From IMG/VR virus record IMGVR_UViG_3300009702_000017, positions 57,051-121,050 of that record: 64,000 nt of DNA; one strand, given 5' to 3'. The notes below the pieces were generated by a model. It was not told where the DNA came from. It ran no database searches and saw only the letters and a list, made by a program, of their open reading frames with translations. A program made the translations under genes and the position numbers. Shown here in pieces: positions 49,027-63,594 of the stretch (positions within the stretch are counted from its first letter, which is position 1; the number at the start of each line of letters is the position of its first letter). This DNA comes from a virus.

Positions 49027-51273
49027 TTATGTATTAGGCCTGATTGTATCGAGCGTATATGTCACCGTCATGTAGAACAATGAAAATGTACCACTCGAAG
49101 GAATGGGTAGTGTGAATTCAAACACGATCGCGTCTGTTACTAGCCAGCTTACTCCAGTCACCAGATTTACAACTTGACGAGTAGTGGCGTTTCCTGCAAA
49201 TGTAGCAGTAGCGGACCCGCTGATGTTAAGAAGCGTTGCCGTCCACGTAGTACCAGCCAAGGTGTCCTTGTAGATTGAGATACTAGAGATACTGTGGGAT
49301 ACGGTATCCGTATTCCTGGCGGTGAAGGAAATGGACGTAATGGTCGCCCCAATCGGAATACGCACACGGCCACCGATCAGTGGTGTACCGGTTGTGCTTG
49401 GTGAAGTTGAGATAGAAGGAATAATTCCAAAAGCAGAACCTCGAAGAACTCCTGTTGTGCCTGTATCATACAAATACATCTCAGCTGCACTTACGTGTAC
49501 AGAGAAGGTCTGTGGGGTTTTGAAATTGTGAGCATCTGTAGCGACACCGGTATTAAAGGTTGCAAGACCGGTAACTGTGATAGGAGGTGTGTGGGTTGAG
49601 TTGCCAATTTCAATTGTCTTGGCAAAAGATCCAATGACCAGATCGTTTACACCCCCACCACCATCAGGCTCATAGGAAGTGGCTGAAATTACGCCAGCCG
49701 AAAGCGTGTCCACGAACCGTGCTGGACCATATACGGTCACTTGCTTTGTGCTTCTGCCAATCGCAATCCCAGTTGCAGTCGTAGTACCGATATTGATGGC
49801 GCCTATAGCGTCAATCGTCACATTGCCAGCTGTACCATTGATGAAGACAGCGGCACCGTTGAGGGTGAGGTTCGATGGGCCAGCATTGATGTCGGCTGCG
49901 GCAAGAATGCCTGCTACAACCGATGTCACACCGACTCTACCAATTGTTACACCAGTTGTATTGGTATCAGTACCAAGCTTCATCGTACCTGTGGTAGGAC
50001 GTGAAATCCCATCTGCCAACACGCTGCCACCCGCATCGATCGTAGGTACGATAGGATTGGTAGCGCTCAATGGAGTTGTGTTTAGGGTAACTGTGCCATT
50101 GAACGCGGTTGTAGCTGGATTGACGATTAGGTTGCCAACTGCAAGAGGGAAGTCACGGGTATAGACTACGCCGTTGTGCCGCCACGCAATGACAAAACGG
50201 CTGCCCGGGATAGCGCCAGTTCCGAGACTAGTTAGCTTCGTCTTCTTCGGCACCAACGCGCTAGCACCAGTGAGATTCTGAGTCCTGTCTACGTCTACGT
50301 AGATGCAGTAGTCATCGGCAAGGTCAGTCAGCCCAGGGCTGTCAGTAGTCTGGTCTGCGATGTCGTTGTAAATACCAGTCGAGTTGTCGAAGAGAAGGGT
50401 CAGGCCCTTCCAGTGCAGGTTGCTAGCAACCACTTCGAAGTAGTCCCCACTCGCAAAAGCGGCCCCACTACGAATCATGCGAACATTGCGGTCGGCTGCG
50501 GCACTGTACCAATACTCACCACCACCAAGCTCCCAGAGCCTAGTCATAATGGCGTCGCGCCAATCCTTGTCGCTCAAGATGGCCTTGTCCCCGCCGCTGA
50601 AGATGTCCCCAGATGTATTTTCATAGCGGGTTCCAGGCCAAGAATAAAATGAACCGGTGTTCGGGGTAGAGCCACCTGAACCAAGCCGGAAATAGAGCTT
50701 ACGTGCATCCTCAAGTGATGTGACATTGTTTGAGGCGTCTGTCGTTACCTTCGCGATTGGAAGCACTGTCGTAGTGCTATCAAAAGGTAGCGTGCTGATG
50801 ATGATGCGATAGTCAAGTACGCGAGCTAGAGGTACGACAGAATTGGTCTTCCCAAGTGTATTGGCGTCGAGGAAGAACACGGTATCGGCTGTCGTGGGAT
50901 CGGCTGTACGAGTGAGGTTGAGCCCTACATAGTTGACGGTGTTGGCAATGAAGCCTCCAGTCAACTTGGCGTTTGAGGTATCTAGTGTCTCTGGCGATGC
51001 ATTGTCATCTGTCTCGAATACAGAACCAGATTCACTGGCTCCATAGTGGATGATGGCGCTGTTGGCCACCGCAAGCTGAAGGGATGTAGCCGGGCTTCCA
51101 ACGGCATTTGTGGTGACCAGCTTGAACCCACGCACCACCAAGGGCTTCCTACCAGCAAAGACGCTTCCGATTACCGAATCGAAGTCTGCAGACACAGCTG
51201 ACTCAAGGCTACGGAGATGGGGGACATCGATACGTTGCTGGCCAAGCCAGTTCTGTCTACGCTTGATAGCCAT
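49027..51273 (-). CDS. Long tail-fibre/baseplate-associated protein
   Basis: A 748-residue, mainly beta protein. The N-terminus (GQQRIDVPHLRSLESAVSAD) resembles the virion-attachment part of large phage fibres. The middle has fibre-type repeats: MKLGTDTNTTGVTIGR, then INIGTTTATGIAIGR, each followed by strands, and the end is a beta domain with ISSISIYKD. It starts below an AATCTAT motif. Probably a tail fibre; no receptor-binding domain named. Confidence 0.65.
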   Translation of the reverse strand: MAIKRRQNWLGQQRIDVPHLRSLESAVSADFDSVIGSVFAGRKPLVVRGFKLVTTNAVGSPATSLQLAVANSAIIHYGASESGSVFETDDNASPETLDTSNAKLTGGFIANTVNYVGLNLTRTADPTTADTVFFLDANTLGKTNSVVPLARVLDYRIIISTLPFDSTTTVLPIAKVTTDASNNVTSLEDARKLYFRLGSGGSTPNTGSFYSWPGTRYENTSGDIFSGGDKAILSDKDWRDAIMTRLWELGGGEYWYSAAADRNVRMIRSGAAFASGDYFEVVASNLHWKGLTLLFDNSTGIYNDIADQTTDSPGLTDLADDYCIYVDVDRTQNLTGASALVPKKTKLTSLGTGAIPGSRFVIAWRHNGVVYTRDFPLAVGNLIVNPATTAFNGTVTLNTTPLSATNPIVPTIDAGGSVLADGISRPTTGTMKLGTDTNTTGVTIGRVGVTSVVAGILAAADINAGPSNLTLNGAAVFINGTAGNVTIDAIGAINIGTTTATGIAIGRSTKQVTVYGPARFVDTLSAGVISATSYEPDGGGGVNDLVIGSFAKTIEIGNSTHTPPITVTGLATFNTGVATDAHNFKTPQTFSVHVSAAEMYLYDTGTTGVLRGSAFGIIPSISTSPSTTGTPLIGGRVRIPIGATITSISFTARNTDTVSHSISSISIYKDTLAGTTWTATLLNISGSATATFAGNATTRQVVNLVTGVSWLVTDAIVFEFTLPIPSSGTFSLFYMTVTYTLDTIRPNT

Positions 51274-51299: not shown

Positions 51300-51716
51300 C
51301 TAAAGTGGACGTACTTCATTGTTATAGTCAAATGCGACAAAGGAAGCGCTTCCAAGCATTCGAGAGCCCACGCCCACTTGCCATTGTTGTTTGTTGATCT
51401 GACATCCATAAGCCTCGAAAATCACTGTATTGGTTACGCGATCCAGAAGCGTCATAGTGAAGTAGTTGGCCTTGGGGACATTGGCATAGATGGGCTTGAT
51501 GCCGTTGCCTTCCAATCCACCGTCACGAACACGAACCATGCTAAGCTGACCTTGGATGGCCTGGATTCCTGGTGAAATCTCAAACGGAGTAGCCTTGTCA
51601 ATCCCCCTGCGCTGGATCTTCTGGTTCGTCTCATTGTAAGAGAAGCCAGTTACCTCCGCAAAGAAATTGCCGTTGATGTAGCACTTTACGTGTGCGCCTA
51701 CGACTACCTGATTCAT
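51300..51716 (-). CDS. Putative tail tube-like or baseplate protein
   Basis: A 138-residue beta protein starting after the 1170-residue gene (GTGAGC...ATG overlap). Its NGNFFAEVTGFSYNETNQKI and ISPGIQAIQGQLSMVRVR strands resemble the fold of small tail-tube or hub proteins (XkdM/gpFII-type). Function inferred from position and strand pattern only. Confidence 0.5.
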   Translation of the reverse strand: MNQVVVGAHVKCYINGNFFAEVTGFSYNETNQKIQRRGIDKATPFEISPGIQAIQGQLSMVRVRDGGLEGNGIKPIYANVPKANYFTMTLLDRVTNTVIFEAYGCQINKQQWQVGVGSRMLGSASFVAFDYNNEVRPL

Positions 51717-54700
51717 GCTCTCGCCTTCCTGTAGGCTTCGTCTACGTCTTCAGACCAGATACCTACCTTCTCGCTCACCTTGTCTCCTGTGGTTGCGTAG
51801 CCGCCGTTCCCAAGGCCAATGTCGCTCGGGTACACCAAGTCTGCCACGAGTGGAATGCCAGTGGCGGCCACACGCTTCAACGCGGTCACTGCTGCGGCTG
51901 TTGCTGCGTTTGAGTCAGTTAAGAATGAGATACCCACGGATGCGGGGTCAGCTACATCGAGACTGGTTCTGGAAGTGAGGTAGATAACGCTTGCCCCAGC
52001 TGCCACTGTGACGGGGAAGCGATAGGTGGGGTCCAATACCAGTTGGGTAGAAGAGAGCTTATCCGTGTACTTCACTGGATAGATGGCGTTGTCGTTTCCA
52101 TAGCCGATAGCAATATAGCCACTATTTGGAAAGGCTGTTGCATCTGCTACGGTGAGTACAAGGTAGCTTCTCTGCGTCACCAACTGCATTGTAGTCGTAG
52201 TGGCGTAGGCAGTGATTGATGGGCCATTGGGATCGAGTGAGAAGGGGCCCAAGAATGGAGATGTGGCAGCCGCTGTAGGCACAATGAGCGCGCTGGTCCC
52301 TTTGTAGTAAAGGGGTTCATCAGTGAAGGTGAATGTGGTGGCAGTCGGAGTGGTGAGAACAACCCCGTTGCGTGGCGGACGACCAATCTTGTCCGAACCA
52401 GGGATGAAAGCTGTCGAATAAGTAGGAGTTCCACTTGCGTTTGCACCAAGGCTCAATACAATCTCATTCGACAACTGTACCGAAGCAGAGTTGGCCTGAC
52501 TGTACGGAGAAGGCTCGGGTACGAGTTCCCATTCGCCTGTCTCGACGTTGTAGTATTCGGCTTGAGTTACTGGGTTGCCAGATGCGTCTACTCCACCCCA
52601 CACCAGTACCTTGTTGATACTGGCGATGAACTCTGCGTGACAGTAACGGCGGGCATACTTCATTGGCGGAATACTATATGAGTGAGTGTTGTTAGCTGTA
52701 CCAAGCCAGTATAGCTCGGCATCATTAAGCACGCGATTGACACTTTCAAGGCGCTTGTTGCGTCCATACCCACCGACCACTAGCAACGTTCCGTTCTGCA
52801 TGTCAGCTACGGCAAAGTTGCATCGTGCTACGTTAAGGGATGCAGTGCTCACCCAATAGCTACCGGCTATAGGAGTCATTTCATTACAGGTGTCAACAAC
52901 CTCTGTGTTGGTGTCATCGAGTAGGATTGGCCCTGCACCTGCGCCACTTCCTAGGACAACGCCAGACGCGAGTTGCCGCCCACCCATGTTTAGGATGGCT
53001 GGTGAACCCCAGGCATCTACCCTGAGGGCTACTTGATCGTAGCAAGCATCTGGGAGCGTACCCACCGCTACCACAGATCCAGTTGAGAAATCGTACTTCT
53101 CAACCGTGTTGGTTGGTGTTGCTCTATCTATGATACCACCGATCCAGTAGTTCTCGCCGTCAACGACAACACCTTGTCCAAGTGCCCTTGGATTTAATGG
53201 TCCGGCACCAGGAATAGGAGTCCAACCGCTTGCTACATCGACGTATGTGTAGGCGTCTTGGAGTACACCCGCCGCTGCGGAGTAACCTCCCCAGAAAATG
53301 GGATACTCGTCAATCACCATTCCGCCCATGGCGTAGCGGCGTGCTACGGCAATGGCTCCTGCGGAAGTAACGGTGTAGTCGTATTGAGTACGTCCGTCTG
53401 CGTCTCCACCACTCAACACAGCCGACCCGGTGAACGTGATGTAGGAAGACGTCGCGCTTTCTGTTGCACCGTCGTAGCCACCAACTAGCCATGCACCAGA
53501 CCCATCGGTCTTTTTGATGACTAGCATGTCGTACAAGGTAGACGGCTGTGCTTGTGACCAGATGCTCATTTGTGATGCATCGAGCGTGTAAGGGGAGGTT
53601 GCAACTTGACCGGCGACGTGTGCGGGGAGTGAATAGTCGTTGGCTGGATTGTCAATGACAAAGGTATCGCCTACAGAGAGACCGTGAGAAGACGAGGTAG
53701 TAATCGTCGTAACCCCAGCTGTGGTACGCACGATGGAAGAAGCGTCTACAACGCTCCCGGGCGAGAGAAAGGAGGCTTGACCATTGCTTCGTTCGGTGAT
53801 TGTAGAGGTGACAGGTAGATACGCTTCAGTCCCCTGATGTACGGAGATGAATGCTGACTTTGAGGCAGACTGAAGTGAAGCTGGCAATAAACGCCAGACA
53901 ACGACGTCAGAAAGAGTGGTTGTAGTGACGCCTTGAGCTATTGCGTTGGAGTTGCTTACCTCTACGTATTGGACTAGGGCAGAAGGTGTATCCACGAATA
54001 CATTGGTTACTGGAAACGTACCACGATTGGCGTCATCGAATACGCCCCCAGACACATTCAAAATGTCTCCGACCCTAACGCCTGCAAGAGTATTTGTACC
54101 CCCACTAGCGTCTGTGCTGATCTCGTATCTAGCCACTCCTGGTTCGGGAATTGTCACACTCCATACGTTGCCAACAGTATTGGACCATGGACTGGTACCG
54201 AACTGGAATGCATTCAAAGCGCTTCCGCCTGTCACTTGGATAAACGACCCAAGTCCCAACTCCTCGGAGAAGAGGACGAGCTTGCTGGTATTGGTAGTGG
54301 GATCGAGGTAGGCTGTAGCGTAGGCGCCCACACCCTGCCTATCCATTGCAGCTGTAATGACCGCCGCTACCTCGTTGACGGTGGCAGCTGCGATGTTAGC
54401 GAACTGGACTGCATGGAAGGTAACTCTAGCTGCGTGCTTGCGATTCACGAGGATGCTCAAGGTGTCACCGTCTACAAGAGCAAATGGTGACGAAGCATTG
54501 GTAACGACATGGGCTTGAGTGGCCATGTCTCCGTAGAATACGCCAAGTACCTGCATCAAAGCGTATGGTGTGAGCTTATGAAACGCTTCGGTGAGAGCGA
54601 GAGCACGGAAGCTTTCGTCGCTCATTCCAATTTTATGGGACTTCTGCACACGGTAGTTGTTGGCCAGACGTGTCAGAAAAGGCCCTGTAGCAGTCTTAAG

Positions 54701-55225
54701 GAACAGCTGGTTGGTTGCTAGACGTGCATTGTCACGTTTGATGGTATCTCCGGTTGCCAAGGCGGCCACAACTGCATTCCACCCCGAGCCCGCGAACATA
54801 GGGGGCAGAAGGTCCTTGATGGAGTCTTCGGTATCGGGAGTGGTGGCTACACTAGGAGCGATAACGTTAGCCCCTGCGGTCACTCCACTGTACATGAAAG
54901 AAAGGGATGTAGGAGACGTGAGAGGCGTACCAGAAAGTGTCTCGATGGCCGTTGACGCAGAGACAGTCCAGTTACCAGTAGTGAGAGCACCAGACAAAAG
55001 CAAGTCAACCTGAAGCGTGTTTCCAGGCACGACGATAGCGTTTGTAACGGTGAGTGGTACTGTACCGGTGAGAGTCCAGTTTGCTACGTTGAGCGCATCG
55101 TTCGTACCTGCGGGATCGCTTTGTTGCGGCGAATACGTGAACGTGACACGTAGGGACGCAGAGGTCAGTACAACAACCGATGACAACGCGAAGCTGCCTG
55201 AGCTAAATGTTGCTGTTGTTGTCAT
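51713..55225 (-). CDS. Kelch-propeller virion protein with Big_5-like N-terminus
   Basis: A 1170-residue structural protein. Residues about 1-120 are an Ig-like Big_5 domain similar to the neighbour at 55225-55899. Residues 120-350 include a helix-rich SIKDLLPPMFAGSGW region and a SFIQVTGGSALNAFQFG domain also seen in the baseplate protein. Residues 560-940 hold repeated kelch-like strands: WLVGGYDGATES, YAMGGMV, YWIGGIID, LNMGGRQL, LLVVGGYGRNKR, VLVWGGVDASG. The C-terminus is beta. Likely a baseplate or tail-surface component that binds glycans or partners. It ends at the next gene's start. Confidence 0.7.
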   Translation of the reverse strand: MTTTATFSSGSFALSSVVVLTSASLRVTFTYSPQQSDPAGTNDALNVANWTLTGTVPLTVTNAIVVPGNTLQVDLLLSGALTTGNWTVSASTAIETLSGTPLTSPTSLSFMYSGVTAGANVIAPSVATTPDTEDSIKDLLPPMFAGSGWNAVVAALATGDTIKRDNARLATNQLFLKTATGPFLTRLANNYRVQKSHKIGMSDESFRALALTEAFHKLTPYALMQVLGVFYGDMATQAHVVTNASSPFALVDGDTLSILVNRKHAARVTFHAVQFANIAAATVNEVAAVITAAMDRQGVGAYATAYLDPTTNTSKLVLFSEELGLGSFIQVTGGSALNAFQFGTSPWSNTVGNVWSVTIPEPGVARYEISTDASGGTNTLAGVRVGDILNVSGGVFDDANRGTFPVTNVFVDTPSALVQYVEVSNSNAIAQGVTTTTLSDVVVWRLLPASLQSASKSAFISVHQGTEAYLPVTSTITERSNGQASFLSPGSVVDASSIVRTTAGVTTITTSSSHGLSVGDTFVIDNPANDYSLPAHVAGQVATSPYTLDASQMSIWSQAQPSTLYDMLVIKKTDGSGAWLVGGYDGATESATSSYITFTGSAVLSGGDADGRTQYDYTVTSAGAIAVARRYAMGGMVIDEYPIFWGGYSAAAGVLQDAYTYVDVASGWTPIPGAGPLNPRALGQGVVVDGENYWIGGIIDRATPTNTVEKYDFSTGSVVAVGTLPDACYDQVALRVDAWGSPAILNMGGRQLASGVVLGSGAGAGPILLDDTNTEVVDTCNEMTPIAGSYWVSTASLNVARCNFAVADMQNGTLLVVGGYGRNKRLESVNRVLNDAELYWLGTANNTHSYSIPPMKYARRYCHAEFIASINKVLVWGGVDASGNPVTQAEYYNVETGEWELVPEPSPYSQANSASVQLSNEIVLSLGANASGTPTYSTAFIPGSDKIGRPPRNGVVLTTPTATTFTFTDEPLYYKGTSALIVPTAAATSPFLGPFSLDPNGPSITAYATTTTMQLVTQRSYLVLTVADATAFPNSGYIAIGYGNDNAIYPVKYTDKLSSTQLVLDPTYRFPVTVAAGASVIYLTSRTSLDVADPASVGISFLTDSNAATAAAVTALKRVAATGIPLVADLVYPSDIGLGNGGYATTGDKVSEKVGIWSEDVDEAYRKARA

Positions 55226-55899
55226 TAGGCCGCATTCCCAACCAAATCACGGACACCAGCTGCGCTTACCACATAGGTAGTAGCTGGATCCATCTCTTCT
55301 GTTACCAGTATGTATACTTGATCCGTCTCCTTAAAGATTGAGAGGATGGTAAGAGCAGGCGAGATAGAGTAGTTGGTTGGATCCGTGGCGTCTGTGGTGT
55401 TGACTGATTCAGAAAAGGCAACTCGAATGTGGGTGCTGTTTAGCCATGTTCCATTGACAAACGTAGGCGCCACACCAGAACCAATAAAGGTGAATGAGTA
55501 GCTGCCTGCGTAGGCACCGCTTCCATCCGCACTCACAATACCAGCTGGCAATGATAGTGAGTAGACACCATCTGTCTCTTGCTCTGTTGTCCCAAGTACA
55601 ATGCTACTCGAATTGACAGTAAGGGAAGCGATAGATACTGCCGCAGCACCAGTCGTACTGATGGAGTATTTTGTTTGGTCAAGTGCGTCTCCGCTCACCG
55701 TAATAGGTGCGGTGAAGTTCAACGTTAGCAATCCAGCGCTTGCGGACAATGTAGCAGTTAGAGGTGCGGGTCCAGATGTAGGAGCATCGAAGAGCGCATT
55801 GATTCCCTGCATTGGCGTACTCGCGGGACGTGCGTAGATTGGAGTACCGACAAGAAAGCTCTCGGGGAACAAAATGTGGATCCCAGTGTAAGTAGCCAT
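55225..55899 (-). CDS. Big_5/SwmB-like domain protein
   Basis: A 224-residue beta protein. It has two Ig-like repeats: ASAGLLTLNFTAPITVSGDA and WLNSTHIRVAFSESVNTTDA, each followed by YSISxxL strands, the pattern of bacterial Big_5 domains. It stops inside the Kelch protein start and is probably a paralogue of that protein's N-terminus. Virion location inferred from neighbours. Confidence 0.6.
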   Translation of the reverse strand: MATYTGIHILFPESFLVGTPIYARPASTPMQGINALFDAPTSGPAPLTATLSASAGLLTLNFTAPITVSGDALDQTKYSISTTGAAAVSIASLTVNSSSIVLGTTEQETDGVYSLSLPAGIVSADGSGAYAGSYSFTFIGSGVAPTFVNGTWLNSTHIRVAFSESVNTTDATDPTNYSISPALTILSIFKETDQVYILVTEEMDPATTYVVSAAGVRDLVGNAA

Positions 55900-55906
55900 C
55901 GTATGC

Positions 55907-56944
55907 CTATGTAGTCCTCAAGGCAATCCCACCACCAGCACTACACAGCAAGAACTTCCATGTTTGTCTAGTAAGAGGATTGGCTGGGTCTGTAGCGTTA
56001 ATGTCCGATTGATCTGCCCATGGCCTGTGGATATTTCGCAACCAGCTTGGAAGCTGGCCATAGATACCGACTTGGCCACTGCTGTATTGATTATACATGA
56101 TACTGGGAAGGAGAGATGCAACCGGCGCTGCTCCAACAAGAGAATCGTACCAGGATGATGCGTAGTAGGGATAGCAATCCACATAAACGTATGGATTGTT
56201 TGTGTTGCCGTTGATAGAGGTCGGCATATTGAATTGCGCGCCGCCCGTATCCCCCCATTTAACCCCTGGTTGCATTAAACCCATGGGTAGAGCGTTCAGT
56301 CCGACTAGGGAGCCAATAGAGAATGCAGAGCCCACCGCCGCCGATACCGTGATTGTGTTAGCTACGGTATCTACCGCAGTAACCTCGACTAGAGCAACAG
56401 GTAGATTTGCTCCAGACTTATCAGCGGCATTGATAGATGTCACGTTGACCCAATCGTTTACTGCAAAGATCGAAGCGTCTACCACAGAGAGAACCGTGTC
56501 TGTAGAGAGCGCCGCCGTCGATAGAGTAGTGAACCCATTGGCTCCCAAGTATGAGTCATAGTAGCCGCTGAAACTGGTCTTCCAATAGCCACTATCCAAG
56601 GGGCCTACTACAAAGGCGCATGGGTTTGCGTCGTCTCCGGCGAAAACTCCATTGTAGGGCGCTGCTGGAACGGGCCAGTAAGTGCTTGAAACAGCATTGA
56701 GGAGGGTTACGTTATCGGTGTCTATAGCTGGAGCAACCTGGATTCGATTTGAACCGAAATTGTATGGAAGGCACTTTACGTAGAGTGGTCGTCCATCGGC
56801 AGTCGTATTGTGAACCACCCAGTTGTCTCCATCTGTGTATGAGTCTTGGGTGTACCCGAGGGTACTAATAAGCCAGTCGTGTAGACCCTGCATGAAGTCG
56901 GTCTTGTTGGTAAAGCCCGTCTGAATGTCTACGTGGTATGCCAT
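55907..56944 (-). CDS. Hypothetical virion protein
   Basis: A 345-residue beta-rich protein starting MAYHVDIQTGFTNKTDFMQG. It has a helical N-terminus (FMQGLHDWLISTLGY), GYYDSYLGANGFTTL, then a strand module VVDASIFAVNDWV also found in other phage baseplate/fibre proteins, and ends GIALRTT. It lies between baseplate J and the Big_5 protein, so a baseplate role is plausible. Confidence 0.55.
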   Translation of the reverse strand: MAYHVDIQTGFTNKTDFMQGLHDWLISTLGYTQDSYTDGDNWVVHNTTADGRPLYVKCLPYNFGSNRIQVAPAIDTDNVTLLNAVSSTYWPVPAAPYNGVFAGDDANPCAFVVGPLDSGYWKTSFSGYYDSYLGANGFTTLSTAALSTDTVLSVVDASIFAVNDWVNVTSINAADKSGANLPVALVEVTAVDTVANTITVSAAVGSAFSIGSLVGLNALPMGLMQPGVKWGDTGGAQFNMPTSINGNTNNPYVYVDCYPYYASSWYDSLVGAAPVASLLPSIMYNQYSSGQVGIYGQLPSWLRNIHRPWADQSDINATDPANPLTRQTWKFLLCSAGGGIALRTT

Positions 56945-56946
56945 AA

Positions 56947-59900
56947 CTAGTCTCCTACGAACTTGATTGTGATGTCGGTTGTGGGGTTCAGTGTTACCGG
57001 CTTCTCGTATGCTTGTACTGAGATTAGGTCATTCCCACTGTTGTACGAAGGAGAAAGTACAACCACAGACTCCACCCCATTAACCGTGGTGGCAGCCGCA
57101 ACCAAGTCACTGATAGTGATTGACTTGCCCACACCGCTTCGGTTGATCTCAGAAGCGACTGCCCCACGAACAGAGTTTTCGATATTGGTACGGTCAACGC
57201 TAGTCCAGGTACGAACTAACAAGCTGATTTTGATATTGTGGATGAGTGGCCCGTCAATAAGCACGTCGGCACCAGAGGCAAGCAGACCGGGGTAGGCTGG
57301 ATTGTCCAGGTCGCCGTAGATTGTCTTGGTGGCCTCCTCGAGCAAGCCAGTCCCAGCCTTGTATCCATCGGTACCAAGGTGTAAGCTTGTATTAAACGAG
57401 AGCTTATCCAAAGAGGTTACGGTAGCGTCATTATTCTCACTGATGCGAGTGAGACCATTATCGGTATCGAACTTGAGGAAGGTATGTAATCCATCCGTAG
57501 AAGGGAAGATACTATGGATGTGCTTCACCAACTTGTTTGGTGTGCCTTCAGTTACATAGATGGAGTCTACATGTGTTCCCAACGCACCTGGGCTTCCACT
57601 CACAGAGGCCATTGGTCTATTGGATACGTCTACGCTAAAGTTGTAGGTGCTGTCGATAGAAAGCACGGTCCAAGTACCCTTGTTGCCGCTACCCCAGAAG
57701 TCATCTTCGATGTGGATTTGATCCCCAGGCATCAGGCTAGCCTGATTGTAGAAGGTGGCATTGACATATACCTCGTCCTCTTCCACACCATTGGGATTCT
57801 CAATCCAGAACCCATGCATACCCGGGATCTTGGATACAGAACGCACGACGGGAAATGTACCTTGGTTGCTTGACGATAGCGCAGTACCAGAGGTAGGTGT
57901 GGAGATGGTTACGTAGTCGCCTTCTGAGCCCACGGTAGTCCCAGCTGCATCATAGATAAAATAAGCCATGTACTTACCGTGCTTCTCCACTCGGATGCGA
58001 GTGCTGATCATAGAGGCGGTGGTGGTACGGAAGGCGTTGGTGAGAGTAACCTTGCCATCTGGAGTGATCCTGGAAAGAGTAGTTGCTGTTGTGAAAGTAG
58101 CCTTTTGTGCGGCAGTATTATTGGCAACCTCTACCATATCGCCGGCATGGAATGGCAAAGCCTGCTCATTGGGAATGAGGATACTCGCATACCCGAGATC
58201 CCCATTGCTATAGCCGAAGGTTGGCGTACCATACAAATTGGCTACGGCTATGTTCGCGGTTCCACCATCGGTCTGGATAGAACCCTCAGAGCCAAGGGTG
58301 AGAGATGAAAGCTGAACGCTCCCATTTGCGTAAGAGACTTCTCCAACGGAAGGCAAGCCAGAAACACTAGGAAGTCCCATGTACGCTACTATAGATGCCG
58401 GCAGAATGGGAACCAAGTAGATGTTCTCGTTAAACCAGTCCACAGAGCTACCTGCCAGTGAAGCGTCTACGCTACGCTTGAATGACAGGCTGTAGTTCGT
58501 ACCAGGGGCAGTTGTGGTCTGCACCCAGTTGATCCCATCGGCAAACGAGTAGTAGGAGCGATAGGCAGTGAAAGCGTCATTGGTAGAATGCAACACAGAG
58601 CCAGTAGGAGTGGTCCCGACGAACGTTCCGGTCATGGGGGCATACGAGATAGCGGCAACAGAACTAATGATTGTGCTGATGCCACAGCCGGCCGTATCGA
58701 GAGGGAAGAAGGTGAGTAGCGGAGAAGTGCTTCCACCACCTACGCCATCGTTACCCCAAGTCACTACGCCATTTCCAGTCACCTGCGTTCTGGTATAGCC
58801 TTGAGCATACTGGCTTCCTACGTTGACAAGCTGTACGACCGTCCCACGCACATTGACATCCACATGCGAGTTGTCATCAAAGTAGACGAGATCGTTGGCT
58901 GCCAATGTAGGCAGAAGGGTTTCACTATATCCTGGCGTGATAGTGCCAATAGCTGTACCCGTTGTAGTAGCTGTTCCACCGTCATTATATACAACTGTTG
59001 CTCCTGTGGTTCCGGCTTGGGTCGTGTAAAGACCAGAGGGGAAGTTCGCGTCAGACGAATTGAGGTAGAATGCGACTCCAGTTCCCAATCCAGCATCGGT
59101 GACTGTGGCAAACGCAGTAGACGGTAGGGTGAGTGTCAGTGTGACAGTTGAGCCCGTGCGACTTGCAGAGGCAGCAGAAAAACCAGAGACTAGCGTGAGC
59201 TTAGTGTAATCGGCCGACGTACCATGAAAGGACAGACCAAACTTTGTGGTAGCGTTGATGGTCGCCGAGGTCTTCTCTGCACCGGAGGGGAGAATGACTG
59301 CGATGTCAGTGTGCTCAGCTGCGGTAGCGCTTGTACCATCGATAGAGATAGTCAAAGCCTTGTTTGGCGCAGTAGGGTAGTCGAAGTACATCCGAGCCGT
59401 GTCGCCATCTGCACCAAGCCTACTGTAACGCCACAGGGTAGCTAATGTGGGATCGGTAGAATGGCTTACGGTACGAGAGTGCATGAAGACGGCCCAGTCA
59501 TTGAAGTCAAAGGAATCGCCGAATGTGTTGGCCAACGTGAGTCCTGTAGCTGCATCCACATACGAGTTGGTGTTACCATAGGTCGCACTGGTAGGACTCA
59601 CCTTCACACCCATTGGGACGGAGAACGAATGGCTTCCATCAACCATCAAGTTGAGTGTGTCATCAGGAGAAATGGCGTATGGATGGACTAGCTCAATGCG
59701 ATCATGCGGAAGCGTTGTACCAAAAGGGGTACGAAGCGTTAAAAACGAGCAACCGTAGTTGACGGCTTCAGGCGTGATAGATGCGATAGCGCTTTCGTAT
59801 CCCACAAGCGAGCCATAGCGCTCTATGTCTCCAGTCTGAGTAGGATAGTACGGAGTATTCTTCAGACCCTTTAGCACCATGTCTTCACGAATGGCATAGA

Positions 59901-62900
59901 GGTTCTGTACCGCTGCGTCAGAACTGAAATTGTAGACAGACACACCAGCAGAGTTCACTCCCAATACGTTATTGAAGAAAAAATGTGGGGTTCTGGTATC
60001 GTCTCCACGCACGTAAGCGTATGTACCATTGTCAGATACCTGTGCTGTAGCTGGCGAGAGTGCGATTGGTGTGGTGTCAGTGGCAGCGACCAAAGCCACG
60101 TCTCCATGGCTTCCAAATGTGTTGGTGCGAACCCTCAACGAAGCAGTGTTGTGCACATAAGCAAACGCGCCGTTTATGCTTCTGTTGATGTACTCCGCAA
60201 TGGTAGGAGCGAGGTAGCCGAGCCCTCCACCAAGTGTAGTCATTTGAAGCGCCTTGTCGGTACGTGCGAACGCAATGCCTCCATTGATAAACGCACCCAC
60301 CATTCTTCCGATGTCGTGTTGGAACTGGTTTTGGCTGGTATCCAGAATTTCTGATGTAGCTACCCCAAGAGTCTGATTGGCGAAGTCTGCGCGTCCACCT
60401 ACCATCATCAATAGCGCGGTATCAATGTAGGCAGAACGAGCACCGATAATATAGTTAGGCGTGAGGTTGTTGGCGTAGCTGCCCACTGCCCATGGGCCAG
60501 TCCCACTCCCATCTGTCTGGATCTCTACGAGAGCAGTAGACGCTCCACCGCCCATGGCGTAGAGTGAACTGGTAGTGGCATCTACAAGCAAATCGAAATC
60601 ATAGCGTGAGTGATTGAGGCTGTTCGCAGAGGTTGTCCATGTTCCTCCAGTTATACTGTATGTTTCTACGCTCGTAAGGGTTGTGATAGTACCAATCCAT
60701 CCGATTCCGCCAGCTGCTACCACATCTCCAGATGCCAGGACTGCCATACCAAACAGACTGCGAGGGGTATTGAGTGCGCCCGTGCTTGAAAAGGTACCTG
60801 CGGTGTGAGAGTAGATTTCACATGTCGAGATAGGGTCAGAAGGGCTGATCTCTCCACCTGCAATGAGTGCGTCTCCATTGGGCAAAAGCACCTGACTGTG
60901 ATTGGCTCGTGCATTTACCATTGGGATGGCTGCGCTCCATGTATTTGTAGTAGGATCGTATACGTAACCGACAGAAGAATAGTTGTTGGCAGTCGTAGCA
61001 GTATCGTTTGCCACACCACCGGTCACGAGTACGGTCCCGTCTCCCAGGAGCGTGGCCCTGTGTTGTGCCAATGCGATTGGTAAAGGGGCGGCAAGGCTCC
61101 ATGTTTTTGTAGTAGGGTCATATAGTTCACAGGTGTCTGTAGCTTGAACTGCACCTGAGTCCGCATTGGTAAAGCCACCGGTCACGAGTACCTTGCCAGT
61201 ATTTAGCAGTGTGGCTGTATGGTCGTAGCGTGCATTAGCAAGCGAACCCACCGCAGTCCAGGTGAGTGTGGTATGGTCATACTCTTCTGTGATTGTGGTA
61301 CCTGTGATGCCACCAACAGCGAGACCTTTGTCAGTTGCGATCTTGGTGAAAGTATGCCCGGCCCGTAACGCATTTAGACCACGGATTTCGATGTCAATAT
61401 AGGTTCCAAGCGCATCTACATATGCCACCCGATGGCTACCACGAAGTACGTCTGGAGCGGTGAAGTCCCATACGATCATCCAATCACCAGCTCGTACATT
61501 CAGAAATGGTGCGCCGCTGGAAGCAGTGAGACGATAACGATAACCCCATCTCTCGTAGCTATGGACACCACCCGTGAATGATGTAGACGCTGTGATGCCC
61601 GTGTTCACTACTGCGCCGCCGCCATCTACCACAAACCACATGCTCAAGTCAGATGTCAGAGGCGCACCAGTTATAGTACCGGATTCAATGAACTGTCTGA
61701 TGTTTGCTGTGCCTACAGATAGACTGTCCCCTGCATTGAGAGGTGTCTTCAGCTTGATGTCGCCACTGAAGCGATCCAACGTGTAATCTGAATTTTTGCC
61801 AATGGACACAGCCACATTGAATACGCCGTTGTTGATGAGCGTACCACCTGAAACAATTAGCTTTGACCTAAAAGAGTTAGCTAGGTTGCTTTTCATCAAT
61901 AAAGTGTTACCGTTGACAGTGACCGTCACGCCAGGAATGACATAGTTCAAAACAGATGCCCATGCATCGAGTGAGTTTGGACCAACAGACGTGAACTTGG
62001 TGCCTGCATCAACGAAGTCTTGGTCGGTAATGGTATAGGTGGTACTTGCAGTACCATCTACTGATAGCGTAAGTGTCTGGTTGCCTATAAGCGCCTTCCA
62101 CTCACTGAAGCTGTTTCCCATTAGGGTTGCGGTCTTCCCGTCCCTGGACAAAAGTACGTCATTGCGATAGAGCCACAGAGTATCTGTCAGTGTGGTGGTG
62201 AACCCAAGAGCATCGTTGGCGTCTGTATAGGCTGTCTCCGCTGTCGTCACCTTTAGATACTCATTGGTATGTGCCTTGGAAAATAAAGCTACCTGCGTGC
62301 CACTGTTGACAGTCCTGGCGCCAAAAGCGAGGGTGTTGTCGCGGTTGATTGAGGCAGCTATCTCATAGGCAGTCGCAGCGCCAATGTCTCGGAAGTCGGC
62401 TGCCTCAAAGTAATGGACCGCAATGGCGTCTCCCACTATCACACGGAGTTGTGCGCCTGCGGTCAGGGTAAATGGTGCGCTTGATATAGATTGTACAAAC
62501 GCCTTGGCTACTGGCACATTGGAGAGCTTGAAATATTGCTCACCACCTACCGCTGCCTCCACAAGAGGCTCACTGGGAATGGCATCGTAAGAGGGTTCGT
62601 ATCCATTTCCATCATCAATGTACAGAACAGTCGGCTCACCCACACGCTTCACTAACTTTGATGATGTGATGCGCTTGTTGTCTGTACTAGAGGTAAGCCC
62701 CAGTACACCATACTCAATAGCCGAGTCTACACCACCAATGACTCTGGAGGCTTCGATTGTGCGCAAACGATCGCGGTACTCTTCTATTGTCTCCGCGTCT
62801 CTACCATTGCTGAACCTCAATGGATTGGTTACGATAGCGCCTGTAAATGGATCTGCTACAAAACTGTTGATTGCACCAGGAGGAACGTTACCATTAGATC

Positions 62901-63594
62901 CCTTTGTTTTTGCTACAACCAATACATTTGATACAGTCATCTCACCATCAGGAATGATTGCATCATACTTGGTCTCGTAGATGATTGCGTTAGCTGCATT
63001 GCCATTGGCTGTTTGAGCCTGTGTACCAGCTGCTATCAATCTGTCTCCACCCTGTCCAACGACCACCGTCTCATCTGCGTTGTGAGCACGGGCAGTGGCA
63101 GTCGAAAGAGTGATAATCCAATAATCGCCAGAGTTGGTCACGGATGTATAAGCAAGCGGGCCCTCATAGTTCTCTGTACCAAAGCCAATGTATACGGTTC
63201 CAGTGGCGGGAAAGGTCGAGGCGTCCTTGACGTAGATATCCGTTGTCCCTACGACTGGAAGAGGCTGGCCCGCGTACACAGTCGAGTAGAGCTTGGTGTA
63301 GGTGCTATCGGTGATAGTGACATACCCATATGCCGCAGTCTGCTTCGTTGGAGGGTAAGCCTGAGCGATGTCCCTATTGTACAAGGCGGTGCCAGTAGCA
63401 CGGTCAAGAGACTGGGCATTGAGTAGCTGGAAGATGTCCTGGGTGTCGTGTGTGTCCGACTGCGCCGCCGCCTCGATGAGAGCCAGGATAGGGCTGCCCA
63501 CCTGGAGGCTGGGAATCCCATACCTCGACAGGAAAGAATCAATCATGTCCTGACGGATCTGTGCGTAGGAGCGTGGCGTGGGGTAGTCTGCCAT
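56947..63594 (-). CDS. Giant baseplate J-like protein with an inserted Kelch propeller
   Basis: A 2215-residue protein. The N-terminus (PTPRSYAQIRQDMIDSFLSR) and SNGRDAETIEEYRDRLR with RVIGGVDSAIEY near residues 270-300 match Baseplate_J/gp6 proteins. A domain near residues 400-470 is shared with the 1170-residue protein. Residues about 755-1030 hold kelch units, e.g. ATLLNTGKVLVTGGFTN, ATLLGDGTVLVTGGVAN and LLPNGDALIAGGE. The last 110 residues (IHNIKISLLVRTW..., ITISDLVAAATTV, GVESVVVLSP) are the usual J C-terminus. It should form the baseplate wedge, with extra surface domains for host contact. Confidence 0.85.
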   Translation of the reverse strand: MADYPTPRSYAQIRQDMIDSFLSRYGIPSLQVGSPILALIEAAAQSDTHDTQDIFQLLNAQSLDRATGTALYNRDIAQAYPPTKQTAAYGYVTITDSTYTKLYSTVYAGQPLPVVGTTDIYVKDASTFPATGTVYIGFGTENYEGPLAYTSVTNSGDYWIITLSTATARAHNADETVVVGQGGDRLIAAGTQAQTANGNAANAIIYETKYDAIIPDGEMTVSNVLVVAKTKGSNGNVPPGAINSFVADPFTGAIVTNPLRFSNGRDAETIEEYRDRLRTIEASRVIGGVDSAIEYGVLGLTSSTDNKRITSSKLVKRVGEPTVLYIDDGNGYEPSYDAIPSEPLVEAAVGGEQYFKLSNVPVAKAFVQSISSAPFTLTAGAQLRVIVGDAIAVHYFEAADFRDIGAATAYEIAASINRDNTLAFGARTVNSGTQVALFSKAHTNEYLKVTTAETAYTDANDALGFTTTLTDTLWLYRNDVLLSRDGKTATLMGNSFSEWKALIGNQTLTLSVDGTASTTYTITDQDFVDAGTKFTSVGPNSLDAWASVLNYVIPGVTVTVNGNTLLMKSNLANSFRSKLIVSGGTLINNGVFNVAVSIGKNSDYTLDRFSGDIKLKTPLNAGDSLSVGTANIRQFIESGTITGAPLTSDLSMWFVVDGGGAVVNTGITASTSFTGGVHSYERWGYRYRLTASSGAPFLNVRAGDWMIVWDFTAPDVLRGSHRVAYVDALGTYIDIEIRGLNALRAGHTFTKIATDKGLAVGGITGTTITEEYDHTTLTWTAVGSLANARYDHTATLLNTGKVLVTGGFTNADSGAVQATDTCELYDPTTKTWSLAAPLPIALAQHRATLLGDGTVLVTGGVANDTATTANNYSSVGYVYDPTTNTWSAAIPMVNARANHSQVLLPNGDALIAGGEISPSDPISTCEIYSHTAGTFSSTGALNTPRSLFGMAVLASGDVVAAGGIGWIGTITTLTSVETYSITGGTWTTSANSLNHSRYDFDLLVDATTSSLYAMGGGASTALVEIQTDGSGTGPWAVGSYANNLTPNYIIGARSAYIDTALLMMVGGRADFANQTLGVATSEILDTSQNQFQHDIGRMVGAFINGGIAFARTDKALQMTTLGGGLGYLAPTIAEYINRSINGAFAYVHNTASLRVRTNTFGSHGDVALVAATDTTPIALSPATAQVSDNGTYAYVRGDDTRTPHFFFNNVLGVNSAGVSVYNFSSDAAVQNLYAIREDMVLKGLKNTPYYPTQTGDIERYGSLVGYESAIASITPEAVNYGCSFLTLRTPFGTTLPHDRIELVHPYAISPDDTLNLMVDGSHSFSVPMGVKVSPTSATYGNTNSYVDAATGLTLANTFGDSFDFNDWAVFMHSRTVSHSTDPTLATLWRYSRLGADGDTARMYFDYPTAPNKALTISIDGTSATAAEHTDIAVILPSGAEKTSATINATTKFGLSFHGTSADYTKLTLVSGFSAASASRTGSTVTLTLTLPSTAFATVTDAGLGTGVAFYLNSSDANFPSGLYTTQAGTTGATVVYNDGGTATTTGTAIGTITPGYSETLLPTLAANDLVYFDDNSHVDVNVRGTVVQLVNVGSQYAQGYTRTQVTGNGVVTWGNDGVGGGSTSPLLTFFPLDTAGCGISTIISSVAAISYAPMTGTFVGTTPTGSVLHSTNDAFTAYRSYYSFADGINWVQTTTAPGTNYSLSFKRSVDASLAGSSVDWFNENIYLVPILPASIVAYMGLPSVSGLPSVGEVSYANGSVQLSSLTLGSEGSIQTDGGTANIAVANLYGTPTFGYSNGDLGYASILIPNEQALPFHAGDMVEVANNTAAQKATFTTATTLSRITPDGKVTLTNAFRTTTASMISTRIRVEKHGKYMAYFIYDAAGTTVGSEGDYVTISTPTSGTALSSSNQGTFPVVRSVSKIPGMHGFWIENPNGVEEDEVYVNATFYNQASLMPGDQIHIEDDFWGSGNKGTWTVLSIDSTYNFSVDVSNRPMASVSGSPGALGTHVDSIYVTEGTPNKLVKHIHSIFPSTDGLHTFLKFDTDNGLTRISENNDATVTSLDKLSFNTSLHLGTDGYKAGTGLLEEATKTIYGDLDNPAYPGLLASGADVLIDGPLIHNIKISLLVRTWTSVDRTNIENSVRGAVASEINRSGVGKSITISDLVAAATTVNGVESVVVLSPSYNSGNDLISVQAYEKPVTLNPTTDITIKFVGD

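Follow-up and report, generated by a model that had tools for sequence, protein, structure and literature searches.

The window analysed here, a 64,000-nucleotide stretch of viral DNA, is the terminal part of a 121,050-base IMG/VR contig (record IMGVR_UViG_3300009702_000017, positions 57,051 to 121,050). On its minus strand, an open reading frame at 56947-63594 (P0001) encodes a 2215-residue protein with a Baseplate_J domain (PF04865) at residues 169-295 (40.3 bits, E = 2.9e-10, cut-off 21.1), the N-terminal part of which also matches the PHROG family 'baseplate wedge subunit' (3.2e-21). This J protein is interrupted by an array of kelch repeats, and a second kelch protein is encoded two genes downstream. 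Between the two lie, also on the minus strand, a 345-residue gene directly after J (55907-56944), which has no Pfam family and no relative among the related loci described below, and a gene for a 224-residue protein (55225-55899) with an Ig-like Big_5 domain (1.3e-7), relatives of which occur in 19 related loci. The second kelch gene is followed on the same strand by genes for a conserved 138-residue tail-cluster protein (51300-51716; relatives in 68 related loci) and a 748-residue tail-fibre-like candidate (49027-51273; matches in 63 related loci). Only approximately the first 430 residues of the latter are conserved, the best eight matches covering just residues 1-429 or thereabouts; judged on its sequence, it looks like the main tail fibre.

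The original prediction, made by reading the sequence of the window, described a kelch propeller set between clear J termini, and both ends of the J protein were indeed recovered. The N-terminal core comprises residues 1-370 (62485-63594, minus strand), as delimited by alignment to the J protein of Myxococcus phage Mx1 and to a compact J of only 486 residues, and the C-terminal core residues 2070-2215 (56947-57387, minus strand). The compact protein (L092:9986-11446), encoded within a tail gene cluster of a Myxococcales metagenome-assembled genome, was the sole J match in genome contigs; residues 8-74, 208-368 and 2078-2185 of the window J align with it in that order, the last of these with its C-terminal part. 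As it aligns to both ends only, around 1,700 residues of the window J can be regarded as a central expansion, within which the propeller is one insertion. By its Pfam score and these alignments the protein is a member of the Baseplate J-like family with both cores present, and it is most likely a baseplate wedge subunit of a presumed contractile tail, enlarged by about 1,700 residues of central domains.

The kelch array spans residues 744-1083 (about 60346-61365, minus strand) and comprises approximately seven units, such that the range of 755-1030 given originally was too short. Kelch_4 matches in five stretches (81.7 bits against a cut-off of 21.6, E = 3.5e-23), accompanied by Kelch_1 (69 bits against 20.1, E = 2.3e-19) and Kelch_6 (59.4 bits against 25.3), scores that for a sequence comparison are far beyond chance. 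A kelch-unit HMM placed units at residues 744-788, 789-841, 842-895, 896-944 and 945-995, and alignment with relatives keeping the late GG motifs indicates two further, weaker units extending to approximately residue 1083. An AlphaFold2 model of residues 600-1230, built from 29 sequences, had a mean pLDDT of 79.3 and a pTM of 0.69, with 10-residue blocks mostly scoring 88-97 over the first five units and 39-76 over the last two. When this model was compared with the PDB using Foldseek, it matched designed kelch proteins and human KLHL17, KLHL3 and KEAP1 with E values of about 1e-16 to 1e-18 and TM-scores mostly of 0.65-0.75 by target length. Together, the model and the structural matches leave the predicted kelch propeller fold well supported, and it may close with six or seven blades.

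Mx1 (OR576727.2) was the only relative of the window among 50,697 phage records. Its J protein (WNM70274.1, 1925 residues) shares the architecture of the window J, with 92% of the query covered at 35% identity in a tblastn comparison, and the order of the surrounding genes is similar. However, no kelch repeat was found in it by Pfam. Alignment by blastp instead produced two blocks, residues 5-746 of the window J against 6-759 of Mx1 J at 42% identity and residues 1084-2215 against 740-1925 at 31% identity, and the gap between them (~747 to ~1083) coincides with the kelch array. As judged from these alignments, the propeller is a clean insertion relative to Mx1 J, and the predicted insertion of a propeller into J thus has the concordant backing of Pfam, the AlphaFold model, Foldseek and the empty Mx1 site. 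The match that the window propeller itself made among the phage records was likewise confined to Mx1, where it fell in the gene next to J (WNM70275.1, 982 residues, annotated 'kelch repeat protein') rather than in J; in Mx1 no extra genes separate the two, whereas there are two in the window.

Although a scan of viral contigs with P0001 alone returned no match, searching them with the alignment of Mx1 and the window identified 95 relatives, of which 80 were kept. These belong to a large group of uncultured Mx1-like phages (L003-L082), many on contigs of 130-180 kb, that is almost unrepresented among sequenced isolates. Comparison of 71 full-length J proteins (the window, Mx1 and 69 uncultured relatives, with the identical L007 and L011 counted once) revealed an insert of approximately 350-400 residues at Mx1 J position 752-755, hereafter site A, in 17: those of the window, L003-L006, L008-L013, L021-L023, L030, L031 and L082. 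In an alignment of 29 J proteins, 17 with the insert and 12 without, Kelch_4, Kelch_1 and Kelch_6 were detected in exactly the 17, across which the GG pairs at residues 761-762, 806-807, 859-860 and 913-914 are invariant. The suggestion that such propellers are unusual in baseplates stands for the catalogued phages, their one relative having a J free of any propeller, and has to be modified for the uncultured ones, in a clade of which the insertion is a shared trait; to the extent of 17 in 71 it is ordinary among related phages, the circumstance that had been expected to count against it. The insertion was absent from the other J proteins, of which one, that of L065 (L065:3678-10352), instead has kelch repeats at residues 1568-1891, near Mx1 position 1604-1608 and hence at a different site. 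Many other J proteins bear different inserts, of 150-317 residues, at this second position, which argues that J tolerates swappable domains.

The site-A distribution is consistent with one old insertion retained in a clade. In a tree of the J core the 17 carriers group together, but with the insert-free L017 and L018 falling among them, a pattern that could reflect loss of the insertion in these two; a single clade of 17 was not rejected (AU p 0.25), meaning several independent insertions need not be invoked. A tree of the propellers similarly left room for a single clade of all 17 from site A (AU p 0.58). The idea that the propeller was recently captured from a host found no support in this tree, nor in the composition of the insert, which has the same G+C content as the rest of J (0.516) and is associated with no internal DNA repeats. 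A recent origin by duplication of the propeller next door was equally unsupported, as propellers from the two genes mostly sort according to gene instead of phage.

The neighbouring kelch gene (P0002; 51713-55225, minus strand), the kelch array of which the original prediction had missed, encodes 1170 residues with a Kelch_1 match (1.2e-11) and is orthologous to the kelch repeat protein of Mx1 (E = 2e-43). Its kelch units were located by the unit HMM and Pfam at residues 680-914 (52484-53188, minus strand), although the array is probably larger. It is probably a wedge protein in the position of gpI, an assignment that draws on gene order and co-conservation because the modelled N-terminal region, residues 110-480 (53786-54898, minus strand), gave only a weak Foldseek match, to the flagellar cap protein FliD (E 5e-4). 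Two of the aligned J proteins also contain Flagellin_IN motif matches. In L003, L005, L011, L026, L027 and L036, the gpI-type protein seems to be split into two genes, one encoding the N-terminal domain and the other the kelch repeats, and in some cases further genes lie between the halves. A second kelch reading frame was present downstream within the fetched flank in all 17 phages with a site-A propeller, and at least 14 related loci have one without kelch repeats in J; in L065, no other kelch reading frame was found in the fetched flank.

In most of the close pairs examined, J changes fastest in its propeller. The 17 proteins had a mean identity of 52% in the N-terminal core, 50% in the C-terminal core, 43% in the central region before the propeller, 34% in the propeller and 36% in the central region after it; among the six pairs with an N-terminal core identity of at least 80%, the propeller averaged 70%, as against 76-88% elsewhere. 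For instance, L004 and L005 share 53% identity in the propeller and 59-85% elsewhere, with a dN/dS, by a rough Nei-Gojobori estimate, of about 1.06 in the former and 0.27-0.55 in the latter. Nevertheless, the signal depends on few close pairs: over all pairs the propeller differs little from the region following it, whose dN/dS even slightly exceeds that of the propeller in L005/L011 and L009/L031. In L013/L031, the propeller is 70% identical between flanks of 85-91%, with identity falling near residue 725 and recovering near residue 1074. The raised dS of this segment (0.76, compared with 0.44 and 0.52 in the adjoining segments), alongside a raised dN, is more readily explained by a cassette exchange than by selection acting on its own, and at these two borders the site patterns among L009, L013 and L031 also change (chi-square p 5e-12). 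A cassette swap is therefore suggested for this pair, although as the comparison involves three sequences, a burst of change in L013 is an alternative.

We propose, with a probability of about one half, that the J propeller is an accessory host-surface-binding domain carried on the wedge. Set within a linker that joins two beta domains of the J expansion, it would lie on the outside of the wedge, facing the host, assuming an outward orientation, and bind a surface structure, whether glycan or protein, of what may be a myxobacterium-like host. The existence of a separate 748-residue fibre-like protein means that the propellers are probably auxiliary, perhaps adding avidity to the fibre, and the propeller of the neighbouring wedge-type protein might act likewise or pair with that of J. 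In the usual wedge, two J subunits accompany one gpI-type subunit; if this holds here, each virion would display 12 + 6 propellers. The proposal is founded on the empty site in Mx1, the same-site insertion in 17 of 71 J proteins, the second kelch reading frame in 17 of 17, the differently placed propeller of L065, rapid divergence and the precedent of 'evolved' Dit proteins, in which carbohydrate-binding modules inserted into the distal tail protein promote adsorption (PMC10688798, PMC7291167). In the lactococcal and other siphophages concerned, as here, a conserved baseplate protein is interrupted by an inserted domain and carriers coexist with non-carriers, but the window protein is not itself an evolved Dit, being a J-like wedge protein with a kelch propeller in a presumed contractile tail; furthermore, binding has been shown for the Dit modules, whereas the propeller is known from sequence and model. 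Whatever the class of ligand predicted, the faster divergence and probable cassette swap appear to favour a host-facing role. Weighing against it are the small number of close pairs from which the speed signal comes, the separate tail-fibre-like protein and the frequency with which kelch propellers bind proteins, as would suit a scaffold.

The best alternative, though an unlikely one, is structural: the J propeller might pack on the gpI-type propeller or on another J, and brace the enlarged baseplate or time its opening. The invariable presence of the second propeller alongside that of J fits such an arrangement, as do the age of both and the broadly similar branching of their trees, and kelch domains commonly mediate protein-protein contacts (PMC5259590). 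Yet the loci with a gpI-type propeller and none in J, together with L065, imply that the two are not obligate partners, and the sharp divergence at the propeller borders is less expected of an internal interface. More doubtful is that a tail fibre or another accessory protein docks on the propeller, a genuine rival inasmuch as cyanophage A-1(L) has a wedge protein, gp31, with an insertion domain of which one copy holds the long tail fibre (PMC10966104); that insertion is of about 100 residues, however, and is not named as a propeller. A fibre-like protein is indeed encoded nearby in the window, but its N-terminal part is conserved in 63 related loci both with and without a J propeller, which makes the fibre appear independent of it. 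It is very improbable that the propeller is an enzyme of the galactose-oxidase or sialate-epimerase type modifying host glycans, for while kelch families include enzymes and a weak similarity to NANM was detected, its 23.2 bits fall below the Pfam cut-off of 45, the strong sequence matches are with generic kelch repeats and the structures most similar to the model are kelch domains that are not enzymes.

Kelch repeats have precedents in giant phages, CBB, EL and PhiPA3 among them, and in the virion of one of these. CBB encodes the kelch proteins CBB_550, CBB_552 and CBB_554, of which CBB_552 is a virion protein (PMC5259590), and the model of the J propeller found Foldseek matches in phages EL, PhiPA3, Noxifer and CBB; these proteins likewise have propellers, but none of the named ones is described as a J protein. 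The modelled region also matched (E = 8.9e-11) the 'Baseplate protein J-like' A0A6J5L250 of an uncultured Caudovirales phage, which comes from a metagenomic deposit and may be a relative bearing the same insertion. No description of kelch repeats inside J was found in the open-access literature searched, in relation to which it is their placement within this protein that is new.

To our knowledge, little has been established about the receptors or the adhesion devices used by phages of myxobacteria. Mx1 is a contractile-tailed phage that adsorbs mainly at the cell poles of Myxococcus (PMC10720576, PMC6070905). In one clade of its uncultured relatives, the J protein contains an identifiable, optional and fast-changing domain, of which Mx1, cultivable on Myxococcus xanthus, is a natural 'empty' counterpart, and the combination renders a role in adsorption testable. 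More speculatively, Mx1-like phages might have their host-binding surface in the wedge, as a ring of kelch propellers formed by J and the gpI-type protein that is exchanged by cassette among related phages and helps to set host range, which would represent an undescribed type of contractile-tail adhesion. The J insertion may also widen the concept of an 'evolved' baseplate protein, framed for Dit proteins that carry carbohydrate-binding modules, to a J protein that carries a kelch propeller.
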